Origin: [Phialemoniopsis] sp. UDSM-2020
Lineage: Eukaryota; Ascomycota; Sordariomycetes; Thyridiales; Thyridiaceae
Reading direction: 5' to 3'
Assembly (NCBI GenBank): GCA_018873225.1
Contig: JAEILZ010000008.1
Location: forward strand, 1,302,001-1,366,000
Length of the DNA stretch: 64,000 nt
This document shows, piece by piece, positions 42,708 through 62,650 of this stretch. Made by a program: the position numbers and the translations under genes. The notes under the pieces are model-generated. The model saw only the letters and a program-made list of their open reading frames with translations, ran no database searches and was not told where the DNA came from. Each line of letters begins with the position of its first letter. Within the stretch, counting starts at the first letter, position 1.

Positions 42708-44809
42708 TTACACATCAACAGCCTCCTTCTTCTCCGGGACAACGGTGTCGCTGCCGGCGGGTCCATTGACGCGGACCATTTGCGTGAGACCGATCTCGGT
42801 GTTGATCTCCTCCATGCGCTCAAAGTCGGCCTGAGACGTGCCCTCGGAGCCAAAGATAATGTCCTAAATCTCTTGATTAGCATACTCATTTCCCTTTCAT
42901 GATGAATGGAGGATGTCTCACCATCTCCTCGAGCGTCAGACGCTTCGTCTCGGGGACAAAGAACCAGATAAACGCGGCGCCCATGTACGTGAGTAGGCCG
43001 AAGAGGATGTACGTGCCGTAGGTGATGCCCTGGAGCATGTCGGGCGTGACCTGTCCGACGATGAAGTTGTTCCTGCGGTTACAGAATGTCAGTCCTCGCT
43101 GGTCTCAGAAAATCGGATCAAAGGTCCGGTCAGCACTTACATCCAGTTACTCGACGCGCCCAACGACACACCATACGGCCGCGAAGACAGAGGCCAAATC
43201 TCAGCGATGATGATCCACGCGCAAGGGCCCCAGGAGTAGCCAAAGTGGATGACGAACAGCCACACCATGCAGACCGCCGCCCAGCCGGCCGCCGCCTCGT
43301 CCATCCACCGGTTCATGTCCTTGGCCACGATGACGGCAATGATTATATGGCACGTTGCCATGCCTACAGCGCCCACAGCAAGCACCGGCTTGCGCCCGAT
43401 GCGGTCGATCCACAGCACCGAGGGGATGGTGGCGATGAACATGACGATGCCGACCACGCCCGTGGCCAGCAGCGACGTCGTGTTGCTGCTCATGCCGAGC
43501 TGCTTGAAGATGGTCGGCGCGTAGTACAGCACGGCGTTGATGCCCGTCCACTGCTGGAAGAACATGACGACGGTGCTCACGATCACGCGCTTGAACATGG
43601 CGCGCGTGCGGAACAGGCTGCCGATGGCGACGAACTGCAGCTTGAACGTGTTCCAGGCCGTCTGCTCGCGCAGGTGCGGGAAGTGCTCGGCGACGGTGCG
43701 CTTCTCGAACAGGGACTGGGCCTTGATCTCGAGGAACTCGAGCTCCATAAGCTCGTGGCCCGGCTCGAGCCCGCGCAGGTGCGCGAGCACGGCGCGCGCC
43801 TCGTCCTCGCGGCCGTGGTGGATGAGCCAGCGAGGGGAGAAGGGCATGAAGATCATGCCGAAGAAGAGGATGATGGCCGGGGCGAGCTGCAGGCAGATGG
43901 GGACGAGCCAGGCTGCGTCTGTCTGGGTTTCGACCGAGGTGCCGCCGATGTAGTTTGTACCGCTACACGTGGGGAATATGTTGTTAGTACTTTGGGCTTT
44001 ATCTTGCCATATGATGGGTGGTAATGGGGATATCATACTAGTCGATCCAGAAGCTGACCATGATACCAAAGGTGATGGCGAGCTGCTGCGTAGCGACGAG
44101 AGCGCCGCGGACCTCGGGAGGCGCGACTTCGGAGTTGTAGATCGGGACAATGGTGGCCAGGCCACCGACACCCATACCACTGCAAGCTCTCATGTCAGTT
44201 CATCGTGTCCAAGCTGCACCACCGGGCTGTGTGAACATACGTGATGAATCGTCCAGCCAGGATAGCCTGGTATCCAGCACTGATGGCAGTAGCCTGGATG
44301 ACCACGCCGAGCATGAAGACAGCACAAGCGACCAGAACACCGTACTTGCGCGACATGACCTCAGCAACAAACCCAGACAGCAGCGTGCCGAGCCAAGCGC
44401 CGAGCTCCAGAATGGCCGTCAGCCAGCCCTTCTTGGTCTGGTTTGCCGAGTCGTCGAAAGGGTCGTACTCGCCCATATCTGTTTATTTCATGCTGTCAGC
44501 CGACCTCGTAACCTAATCAAAGCCGTCTTTTCCCTTTGTCATCACTATCGCCAAGACAACGGCTCACGCTGCAAACATGAAAAAGAGACCCAAGGACTCA
44601 CGTTTCTTGAACGAAGGCATAGCGAGCACACCCGAGAACATGCCCTGGTTGTATCCGTACAGCACACCACCGATGCAGGCAAAGGCCGCGATGCGGAAGA
44701 CCTTGAAGTTCTTCCACAGGGCTCGCGCACCCGAGGCGCCCATGAGGGCCTGACGCCTGTGAAGGGCGGCATCGTAGAACGCGGTGCCCGCGTCGGCTCC
44801 GCCACCCAT
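42708..44809 (-). CDS. MFS sugar transporter (SP family)
   Basis: Six exons (44809-44602, 44478-44241, 44179-44039, 43962-43141, 43072-42922, 42863-42708) agree in phase and give 571 residues. Sugar-porter hallmarks are present in order: GYNQGMFSGVL in helix 1, GRFIT-GMGVGG after loop 4, PESPRW-like FSPRWLIHHGREDEA, FFQQWTGINAVLYYAPTIF in helix 7, DRIGRKPVL in loop 8-9, and PETKRLTLEEMD near the end. Twelve membrane spans are expected. Fungal relatives import hexoses, disaccharides or quinate at the plasma membrane. It is convergent with the AA9 gene, so both may serve plant-biomass use, though no shared control can be seen. The long + strand open frames in this gene are antisense shadows. 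Confidence 0.9.
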
Positions 44810-50908: not shown

Positions 50909-52510
50909 TCACCTAGGCGCAGCAGGCGCCGCGGTCGCCACCACAACCTGATCGTCCTCGACGTCCTCCCACTCGTCTTCGTCAATCAGGTCTGGCTCGC
51001 CCATCACGCTGCGCCACGCCCGCTGCCACATACCCTTCTTCTGCAGCAGGGCGAACACCAGGATGACGGGCAAATGCCACACGCTCGCCCAGAACAAGCC
51101 CCGCGCCGACCCAGCCTGGCCCTCAAGCTTCCAGAACCTGTATGAGTCGCGTAGCACCCATGCGTTGACCGGTAGCGTCGTGATCGCAAACGTCCACTCC
51201 GTCACGCCGGCCGCACAGAGCCCAACGCACAGCGGAATGAAGACGAAGCCGTAGCGCAGTGCCACGCGCCCGTTGCGCGCTGGATTCACCCACGCTAGCA
51301 TCTTGAGCCCGGCGTTCTTGTACTCCTCCCTGATAGACCACGAGAGCGCCATAAAGTGCGGAAACTGCCACGCGTAGAGCAGGAATGCAAGGATCCAACC
51401 TCCAATGCTGGAACCGTCAGAGGCGAATAGTAGCTCTCTGAATGAGCCGTCGCCCGTGGCCGACTCGCCTGCCGCCGCAGCCCAGCCCATGAGCGGCGGT
51501 ATACCTCCAACCAGAGCCCCGACCCAGGTATTCAGCCAGTGTAGGCGTTTCATCGGCGTGTAGATACCCGCGTAGAGGACGATATTGGCCAAGCCCAGGA
51601 AGGCTACGGTGGGATTAACGCCAAATTGCAGCGCGGCTACGCCTGACACGCCGCAGACAATAGCGAATATAACAGCGGCACGCTTTGAGATCATGTTACG
51701 GACCAGCGGTCGATTCCGGGTCCGTGTCATCTTTGAATCGGTATCGGGTTCGTAGATCATGTTGAAGGCGTTTGCGGACGCCGAGCACAGCGTCGTTCCC
51801 GTCGTCAGGAAAAGGAGCGTAAGGGGCGATAATGACGGCGTAGTAGCGGCGACCTCGTTGAGTAGAGAGGAAGAGAGGAAGGAAGGGACGGGGTAGAGGG
51901 CGTAAGGCGCCATGGCCGTGAGAACAACCAAGGTCGTCAGGCGCGGCTTCGAGAGGGAGAGGACGGCGGAAAGGTATCGCTTGAGGGAGTCGGGTCGTTG
52001 CTTTTCGGCGAAGGTGGTGAGTGTCGAGGATGCATTGGAGGGAAGATCGCTCGGCGAGCCGTTATCGCCGGCAGCGGCAGCCGCTTCTGCGGCGGCCTTG
52101 CGGCGGGCGGCCTGTCGCCTTCGATGGGGCAGATCTTGGTCTATGTATAGGTTCGACGACGCCGTCGTAGCATCTTGGCCAGAGGCCTTTGAAGTCTCGG
52201 CTGAAGCAGCAGACGAAGAGTTGCCGCCGACGGTCGACGATGTAGCTACCGGCCGGGTAGATTTGGGCAGTATGCTAAACCGCTCAAAGATGGTGTTGGA
52301 GAGGAAGTAGCCCGAGTTCAGTCGCCGCGAAGCTACCGCTGTGGCGGCAGCGGCCTGTCGTGACTTCGAGGTCGTCGAGAGAAAGCTTCCGAAGCTTCCC
52401 TCGCCAGCCGGTCGCCGTGCACGGCTGAGCTGTGGCAGCACCGGCCGCTTGGCGCATTGGCTGCAGACGCGGCCATTCAAGGCGCGCATGGTGAGGCCCG
52501 GCGGTCGCAT
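50909..52510 (-). CDS. COX10: Protoheme IX farnesyltransferase, mitochondrial
   Basis: Single exon, 533 residues, ATG at 52510. The first ~150 residues are basic, Ser/Ala-rich and disordered, as for a mitochondrial targeting region. The UbiA-type prenyltransferase core starts near residue 185 (LSLSKPRLTTLVVLTAMAPY). It contains the Asp-rich catalytic motif NMIYEPDTDSKMTRTRNRPL (N-x3-D/E-x-D-x2-M-x-RT-x-x-RP) near 248. The second conserved loop is YTPMKRLHWLNTWVGALVGG, followed by PPLMGW. About seven to nine membrane spans are visible. The enzyme adds a farnesyl chain to heme b to make heme o, the first step of heme a synthesis for cytochrome c oxidase, in the inner mitochondrial membrane. The C-terminus has an extra acidic/Ala-rich tail. 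Confidence 0.95.
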   Translation of the reverse strand: MRPPGLTMRALNGRVCSQCAKRPVLPQLSRARRPAGEGSFGSFLSTTSKSRQAAAATAVASRRLNSGYFLSNTIFERFSILPKSTRPVATSSTVGGNSSSAASAETSKASGQDATTASSNLYIDQDLPHRRRQAARRKAAAEAAAAAGDNGSPSDLPSNASSTLTTFAEKQRPDSLKRYLSAVLSLSKPRLTTLVVLTAMAPYALYPVPSFLSSSLLNEVAATTPSLSPLTLLFLTTGTTLCSASANAFNMIYEPDTDSKMTRTRNRPLVRNMISKRAAVIFAIVCGVSGVAALQFGVNPTVAFLGLANIVLYAGIYTPMKRLHWLNTWVGALVGGIPPLMGWAAAAGESATGDGSFRELLFASDGSSIGGWILAFLLYAWQFPHFMALSWSIREEYKNAGLKMLAWVNPARNGRVALRYGFVFIPLCVGLCAAGVTEWTFAITTLPVNAWVLRDSYRFWKLEGQAGSARGLFWASVWHLPVILVFALLQKKGMWQRAWRSVMGEPDLIDEDEWEDVEDDQVVVATAAPAAPR

Positions 52511-62100: not shown

Positions 62101-62248
62101 GGCAAGATGGCCGAGCGGGTACGTTATCACGATATCCGCAACTCAGTGGCACCAGTAACTAACTCAGTATCTAGTCTAAGGCGCTAGCTTCAGGGAACTG
62201 AAAAATGCTAGTCACATTGTGGCGTGGGTTCGAATCCCACTCTTGTCA
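62101..62248 (+). tRNA. tRNA-Leu(CAG) with a canonical 11-nt intron and a 56-nt D-loop insertion
   Basis: With the insertion removed, all parts of a class II tRNA-Leu fold. The acceptor stem GGCAAGA pairs with TCTTGTC (one G-U), with discriminator A. The D-stem is GCC/GGC with loop GAGCGGTCTAA. The anticodon stem is CTAGC/GCTAG with anticodon CAG at 62191-62193. The variable arm is a CAC-ATT-GTG hairpin, and the T-arm is GTGGG-TTCGAAT-CCCAC. An 11-nt intron (62195-62205) follows position 37, as usual for nuclear tRNA introns. The D-loop is split by 62119-62174, which starts GTACGT, contains TAACTAAC and ends CTAG. Internal box A (TGGCCGAGCGG) lies just before the insertion and box B (GGTTCGAATCC) is intact. 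A T5 run at 62257-62261 fits Pol III termination. Confidence 0.85.
62119..62174 (+). other. Spliceosomal-intron-like insertion in the tRNA D-loop
   Basis: 56 nt, the same length as several protein-gene introns in this window. The 5' end is GTACGT, the branch-like CTAAC lies about 14 nt from the 3' end, and the 3' end is CTAG. It contains no TTTT run that would stop Pol III. No target-site duplication is visible. Confidence 0.7.
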
Positions 62249-62650
62249 TGCATATCTTTTTGCTCAGACCCACGAGGGTGTGTGCTCCTTTTTTTCTCAA
62301 CGAAATGTCACTGAGAAAGCACAACTGGTTGTTACAGGACATCTCGGAGGGGCTAAGACATGAAAGGTAGTGGTCACAAGCGGGAACTGGAACTGGAAGT
62401 CTGTTGGCGACTTGGGCAATGTTCTTTGGGGGTTTACTTGGAATTGATGTATATTTAAAGGAGTGTCGTTGTCGTTGTTGCACTGCTATGAGCTCTCAAT
62501 GGCATTACGAGCAACAGATGATTGAGTCTTCACCCATTGTCATGGTCAAGCGACAACCCAAGTTTTGAGCTAGCTCGGCCGAAACTACCTCAACCTTGTC
62601 GACGCAAAGAAAGAGCTCTGTCATAGAAACGCTCGCCACGACCATTATCC
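62249..62650. other. Short intergenic space
   Basis: tRNA 3' flank and 3' flank of the MYND gene; no further gene seen. Confidence 0.5.
62257..62261 (+). terminator. Pol III T-run after tRNA-Leu
   Basis: TTTTT begins 9 nt after the tRNA 3' end. Confidence 0.75.

Follow-up and report, generated by a model that had tools for sequence, protein, structure and literature searches.

The window analysed here, a stretch of 64,000 nucleotides, corresponds to C10:1302001-1366000 in a 44.18-Mb genome of 11 contigs. It carries a sugar transporter gene (42711-44809), 95% identical over 79% of the query to Thyridium curvatum E0L32_004640, and a COX10-like gene (50984-52510), the protein of which is 84% identical to T. 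curvatum E0L32_004642. Given that the locus numbers of the two homologues are nearly adjacent, the window looks syntenic with T. curvatum, a Sordariomycete, and the genome is taken to be that of another Sordariomycete near this species. On the forward strand, at 62101-62248, lies a tRNA-Leu(CAG) gene that reads as tRNA-Leu only after 56 nt (62119-62174), situated between G19 and T20 of the D-loop (numbering by hand), are taken out (Table 1). With introns allowed, ARAGORN mistakes the unspliced locus for a tRNA-Pro(agg) carrying an "intron" of 58 nt; once the insert is removed, the same program reports tRNA-Leu(cag) with an 11-nt intron in the anticodon loop, and RNA folding of the sequence with both introns out gives a cloverleaf with a long variable arm. 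The boundaries of the insert leave room for a 1-nt shift as the only alternative placement. Neither an Rfam scan nor an ARAGORN scan of the whole window detected any tRNA, because the insert hides the gene. The element that ends at the insertion point is box A by its consensus, and a box A followed by a GTRNGT donor occurs once in the window, as compared with 0 matches in 100 shuffles. The shorter intron contains CTGA, complementary to the anticodon loop. Thus the initial annotation was right that the tRNA-Leu(CAG) fold appears only without the insert, that the insert has a GTACGT donor, a CTAAC and a CTAG end, and that the gene has a separate 11-nt intron in its anticodon loop.

Table 1. Features of the interrupted tRNA-Leu(CAG) gene (positions in the window)
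Feature	Position	Strand	Basis
tRNA exon 1: acceptor 5' strand, D-stem 5' strand, D-loop to G19	62101..62118	+	Same as the C5:4015258 paralogue
Box A, TGGCCGAGCGG, intact; its end is the exact insertion point	62108..62118	+	Sequence
Putative 56-nt spliceosome-type intron, D-loop positions 19/20	62119..62174	+	Missing in the C5:4015258 paralogue; GTACGT, CTAAC, TAG; ARAGORN
5' splice site GTACGT	62119..62124	+	Sequence; the tRNA-Gln(CTG) insert has the same donor
Branch-like CTAAC, with 62162 as the presumed branch A (12 nt before the insert's 3' end)	62159..62163	+	Sequence
3' splice site AG (CTAG)	62173..62174	+	Sequence
tRNA exon 2: remainder of D-arm, anticodon stem 5' strand, anticodon CAG (62191-62193), G37	62175..62194	+	ARAGORN, paralogue
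Conventional SEN-type anticodon-loop intron, 11 nt, after position 37	62195..62205	+	ARAGORN puts an 11-nt intron 1 nt later
tRNA exon 3: anticodon stem 3' strand, variable arm, T-arm, acceptor 3' strand, A73	62206..62248	+	Same as the paralogue
Box B, GGTTCGAATCC, intact	62227..62237 (C10:1364227-1364237)	+	Pattern match
T5 run 9 nt downstream of the tRNA, probably the Pol III terminator	62257..62261	+	Sequence

When the genome was checked for other tRNA-Leu(CAG) genes, one without the insert was found at C5:4015258-4015350, which is also the best other match to the window gene and reads GCGG directly followed by TCTAA at the corresponding site. The spliced window gene and this copy are equal at 89 of 92 aligned bases, with one gap, and all differences fall inside the anticodon-loop intron, which has diverged in the paralogue and measures 12 nt there versus 11 nt in the window gene. 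The exons are identical and intact, and the flanks look unrelated. About 600 nt from the uninterrupted gene, at C5:4015933-4015986, there is also an inverted tRNA-Leu(CAG) fragment. Given the uninterrupted sister gene with its identical exons, the window copy's own function is not guaranteed, and one could argue that this copy is a pseudogene disabled by an intron-like sequence while the C5 gene does the work. We consider this unlikely. No decay of exons or promoter is seen in the window gene; on the contrary, its exons, its two promoter boxes A and B and its terminator are perfect even though the anticodon-loop introns of the two copies differ and their flanks look unrelated, and the insert has all the splice signals. 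Moreover, 20 other genes are built alike, including the five Lys(CTT) genes found. The suggestion in the initial annotation that this is a disabled tRNA is hence very unlikely to hold for the class as a whole, and it stays a possibility for the window copy alone.

A whole-genome survey identified 22 inserts in 21 nuclear tRNA genes. It drew on matches to RF00005 and to box B, a variable-loop/T-arm pattern, blastn and a tRNA-Leu 5'-exon pattern, and loci were read by means of ARAGORN and of a script for acceptor and T-arm pairing. The RF00005 scan, in which 63 of 930 first-look candidates were scored, gave at least 64 matches; 15 were on C3, a contig of 28.9 kb in which tRNAs of mitochondrial type are clustered, and all 49 matches outside C3 were read. 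The box-B pattern gave 90 matches (30 obtained as loci, 40 fetched, 13 already known), the variable-loop/T-arm pattern 34 (13 fetched, 9 already known) and one further genome search 62 (8 obtained as loci, one more read later). With 0 mismatches, the tRNA-Leu 5'-exon pattern had 5 matches, four known and the fifth being L162; with one mismatch it had 7, namely four known tRNAs and three that were fetched (L163, L164 and L165), among which L164 was rejected as a tRNA by eye. As the survey is incomplete, the 21 interrupted genes are a lower bound. The scans also require an intact T-arm and acceptor, so that the finding of intact boxes A and B is partly a matter of ascertainment, and for the same reason we make no claim that insertion sites avoid these boxes.

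The interrupted genes comprise the Leu(CAG) gene of the window, three Leu(CAA), five Lys(CTT), two Trp(CCA) and three Pro(AGG) genes, and one each for Gly(CCC), Arg(CCG), Glu(TTC), Cys(GCA), initiator Met, Ser(GCT) and Gln(CTG); one Pro(AGG) gene has two inserts plus a conventional intron. By hand numbering, the inserts lie at 18/19 or 19/20 in Leu, Lys, Gly and Glu, at 21/22 in Trp, at 25/26 in Arg, at 26/27 and 45/46 in Pro, at 31/32 in Cys, at 32/33 in one Leu(CAA), at 33/34 in initiator Met, and at 34/35, inside the anticodon, in Ser and Gln, which makes 13 isotype-and-site combinations among the 22 inserts. ARAGORN called the correct isotype for 0 of 18 genes before removal of the insert and for 17 of 18 after it. 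For three genes read later, removal led to the right call for Pro (L157), to Leu(CAA) L162 being miscalled as Met, and to no call for L163, the 3' end of which lies outside the fetched sequence. Uninterrupted copies were found for initiator Met, Gln, Cys, Ser(GCT) and Leu(CAG). Rfam, blastn and pattern searches of the genome yielded no tRNA gene for elongator Met, Phe or Tyr; these genes may be interrupted at several sites or may simply have been missed. An elongator Met pattern had three one-mismatch matches, and the one fetched is no tRNA. Among 5S rRNA genes, 26 of 27 matches were over the cut-off and were uninterrupted at 118-120 nt, in a scan that is blind to interrupted 5S genes. A search for relatives with one exact pattern each in a viral contig set and a genome contig set gave 0 matches.

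The inserts share the signals of introns in mRNA. Their starts are GT in 21 cases and GC in one (the Cys insert, GCAAGT), 21 of 22 end in AG, and all 22 have a CTAAC, CTAAT or TTAAC, the A of which lies 10-15 nt before the insert's end. Taken together, a G[TC]NNG[TC] start, an AG end and a branch-like motif are present in 21 of the 22, with boundaries set by hand where the tRNA fold allowed a choice of about 1 nt, as compared with 82 of 2,000,000 random window segments passing the same test (about 4 in 100,000), the lengths of which were taken from 20 of the inserts. The signals are therefore far beyond chance over the whole set. Leu(CAA) L069 (C1:2349114-2349272) has a good donor and branch site and a GG at the expected AG 3' end; this gene may be dead or may use an odd 3' end. 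Insert lengths range from 48 to 99 nt with a median of 57. Four mRNA introns in the sugar transporter gene, placed by means of the T. curvatum homologue, measure 58-76 nt, so that the inserts fit their size class; three of the four have CTGAC or CTAAT near the 3' AG, and one shows no clear CTRAY in the part of its sequence inspected. Likewise, 13 de novo candidate mRNA introns measure 45-90 nt. In donor and AG ends, in the branch motif and in mRNA-intron-like length and signals, the inserts agree with U2-type spliceosomal introns.

Features of Pol III transcription are found around the inserts. A T5 or longer run occurs within 40 nt downstream of 12 of 18 interrupted genes as cut, versus 1.5% of random 41-mers; some of the other six genes were covered by less than 40 nt of flank, one Trp gene had its T run inside the cut, and the two Lys genes on C6 have a T7 about 40 nt downstream. 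The window gene, with boxes A and B intact and a T5 present, would accordingly be grouped with Pol III small RNA genes that have mRNA-type introns. Avoidance of T runs within the inserts was considered as a proof of Pol III and dropped as uninformative, T5 being present in 0 of 19 inserts, 0 of 13 de novo mRNA introns and 2.4% of random 56-mers. In the inverted Lys(CTT) pair on C6 (C6:1465507-1467516) a conserved, hairpin-like 3' trailer, CAATTCCCGATGCTCCAGA..TCTGGA, precedes the T7, and the trailer of the other three Lys genes begins with the same CAATTCCCG. Inverted tRNA pairs within about 2 kb are also seen for Pro (C4:3138641-3139913 and C8:2737460-2737877), Val (C6:2798904-2799230) and Gly (C7:4191805-4192025).

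Introns outside the canonical position pose the question of whether the inserts could be ectopic substrates of the tRNA splicing endonuclease. Introns of archaea and Cyanidioschyzon merolae are likewise found in the D-loop, the anticodon arm and elsewhere, with several per tRNA gene (PMC3978253, PMC8450103), C. merolae having them at D-loop, anticodon-loop and T-loop positions (PMC3978253). Those are bulge-helix-bulge (BHB) introns cut by an endonuclease, whereas the inserts described here have spliceosomal signals and are alike in sequence (GT/GC, CTAAC, AG) rather than in structure. Either of the two strict BHB topologies, with a 4-bp helix, fitted 0 of the 20 inserts outside L162 and L163. 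By hand numbering, none of the inserts is at 37/38, where the window gene has its other intron, the one of 11 nt. Indeed, of the 21 interrupted genes, 15 have a conventional 37/38 intron besides the insert, 12 of them counted by ARAGORN with the right isotype among 20 fully read genes and the other three, all three Leu(CAA), by eye. The inserts thus differ from conventional SEN introns in position, in their sequence-defined ends and in lacking strict BHB geometry, and an ectopic SEN or BHB origin is highly improbable.

An equally remote alternative would be that the inserts stem from a recent burst of introner-like mobile elements and have no long functional history. Many genes are struck, and the lengths are similar, as such a burst would leave them. 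However, a search with 19 inserts and three introns of the U6 gene as queries at E up to 10, in which 24 candidates were scored, found nothing beyond the queried loci except the related insert of a Pro paralogue, L157, and a degenerate Glu fragment. These 19 inserts therefore belong to no family of many similar copies at that cut-off, and inserts at shared sites have diverged to as little as 20 of 54 equal positions.

All five Lys(CTT) genes found are interrupted, and all at one site. No uninterrupted Lys(CTT) was found when this genome was searched by blastn with the spliced Lys sequence, a search that is not exhaustive, since three interrupted Lys genes were also missed by it. The exons of the five genes agree at 65 to 72 of 72 positions and the inserts at 20 of 54 to 50 of 57; leaving aside the L147/L153 and C6 pairs, the inserts are equal at 20-31 of 50-58 positions. 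The mature sequences, four of them distinct, are 100% paired, with pair 28-42 being AU, CG, GC or UA, pair 29-41 AU or UA, and pair 49-65 AU or GC. In 500 shuffles of the four distinct sequences, the covariation score was reached by 3, the count of pairs with two-sided changes by 40 and that of further pair types by 29. Between L147 and L153, the inserts of which are clearly related (50 of 57), the exons differ at 2 of 72 positions, 28 and 42, and these form a single compensated pair, C28-G42 versus A28-U42. Because of this compensated pair and the full pairing in all five genes, the Lys genes seem to have gone on evolving as functional tRNAs in their interrupted state. A single ancestral insertion for all five is suggested mainly by the shared site, most of the inserts being too diverged for proof; if the insert is ancestral, the other exon changes would also have arisen in interrupted genes.

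Other isotypes show the same kind of change. The interrupted and uninterrupted Cys genes have only two exon differences, which together amount to an A-U to G-C pair change, and two of the three exon differences between the initiator Met genes do the same (both by eye). The exons of insert-bearing genes are, to judge from these substitutions, under base-pairing selection. Among the Trp, Pro(AGG) and Leu(CAA) copies read, it is those without an insert that are damaged, which speaks once more against the inserts being marks of pseudogenes. No uninterrupted Trp gene with a normal D-arm was found in the genome searches; the sole insert-less Trp relative found (L155, C9:476062) has an abnormal D-arm and keeps its SEN-type intron. 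Two insert-less Pro(AGG) copies on C8 (L159 and L160, C8:2737460-2737877) and one insert-less Leu(CAA) copy (L165, C8:3609929) also keep the SEN-type intron and have damaged T-arms. These Trp, Pro and Leu(CAA) copies would fit an origin from half-spliced precursors, the spliceosomal intron alone being gone from the copied RNA; descent from never-interrupted ancestors is possible as well.

The tRNA genes are not the only small structured RNA genes with such introns in this genome. The canonical U6 gene at C9:709155 has three GT-AG introns, the second of which splits ACAGAGA and the third of which is without a clear CTRAY site by eye, and removal of the three leaves a canonical U6 followed by T7. 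Two more U6-like copies (C6:154783 and C5:1318111) are diverged and have no introns. The lineage thus tolerates GT-AG introns in small structured RNA genes, and the tRNA genes extend that tolerance. According to a 2017 paper, frequent interruption by an intron is known, among small structured RNAs, only for U3 and U6, and U3, in general a Pol III gene, has normal spliceosomal introns (PMC5832005). The introns of fungal U6 snRNA and U3 snoRNA are likewise GT-AG introns with branch sites; unlike there, the hosts here are tRNAs of many isoacceptors, with sites inside the anticodon and beside the internal promoter. Spliceosomal introns in ascomycete nuclear rDNA, named and cited in PMC11782384, provide another example of mRNA-type introns in a non-coding gene outside Pol II, with a Pol I rRNA as the host there and a Pol III tRNA here. 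In the open-licence literature, no report of spliceosomal introns in tRNA genes was found among the matches listed (by title and abstract start), and a report elsewhere is possible. Passages of PMC4090602, PMC8450103, PMC5832005, PMC11782384, PMC13149111 and PMC3978253 on related subjects hold no mention of them.

Removal of the inserts restores canonical tRNAs, paralogues have insertion sites in common, and the splice signals are kept while the interiors vary. We conclude that the window insert is very probably a U2-type GT-AG spliceosomal intron in a nuclear, Pol III-transcribed tRNA-Leu(CAG), to be removed before endonuclease splicing. This agrees with the earlier proposal of a Pol II-style intron placed right after box A of a Pol III gene, which gains support from the 21 interrupted genes and 13 isotype-and-site combinations, from signals kept in paralogues with differing insert interiors, and from compensatory changes in insert-bearing genes. 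In all likelihood, complete-signal spliceosomal introns number at least 21 in 20 tRNA genes, or 22 in 21 if the gene with the aberrant 3' end is included. Their removal in vivo, which we infer from sequence, could proceed as follows. Pol III would start from the intact boxes A and B, the distance between which is lengthened by the insert, and would stop at the downstream T run. The nuclear spliceosome would take the insert out as a lariat, and only then would the precursor fold, allowing SEN and ligase to remove the anticodon-loop intron. Since inserts in the D-loop, the anticodon arm and the variable loop would disturb the fold that SEN reads, splicing by the spliceosome first is the likely order.

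With many tRNA genes apparently interrupted by mRNA-type introns, the mRNA-splicing machine of this fungus probably must process tRNAs too. If the inserts are removed by the spliceosome and SEN acts thereafter, tRNA maturation would depend on the spliceosome as one of its enzymes, for Lys(CUU) and Trp at any rate. It is likely, if somewhat less firmly so than the intron assignment itself, that introns have entered tRNA genes repeatedly in this lineage, that no working uninterrupted Lys(CUU) or Trp gene is left, and that the spliceosome, followed by SEN, has become obligatory in tRNA maturation. In the tRNAscan-SE 2.0 paper, noncanonical introns are described as being searched for in archaea (PMC8450103); inserts of the kind seen here, if they are spliceosomal introns, would explain tRNA genes missed by standard finders in such genomes. 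They would also provide a naturally occurring set of sites of intron gain in short RNAs whose structure is known exactly, and models of intron gain would become testable because both the target and the result are completely known. tRNA splicing is taught as being independent of the spliceosome. A genome with spliceosome-dependent tRNA precursors would break that rule and would mean that the spliceosome is open to tRNA transcripts made by Pol III, and two splicing machines acting in order would tie mRNA splicing capacity to decoding.
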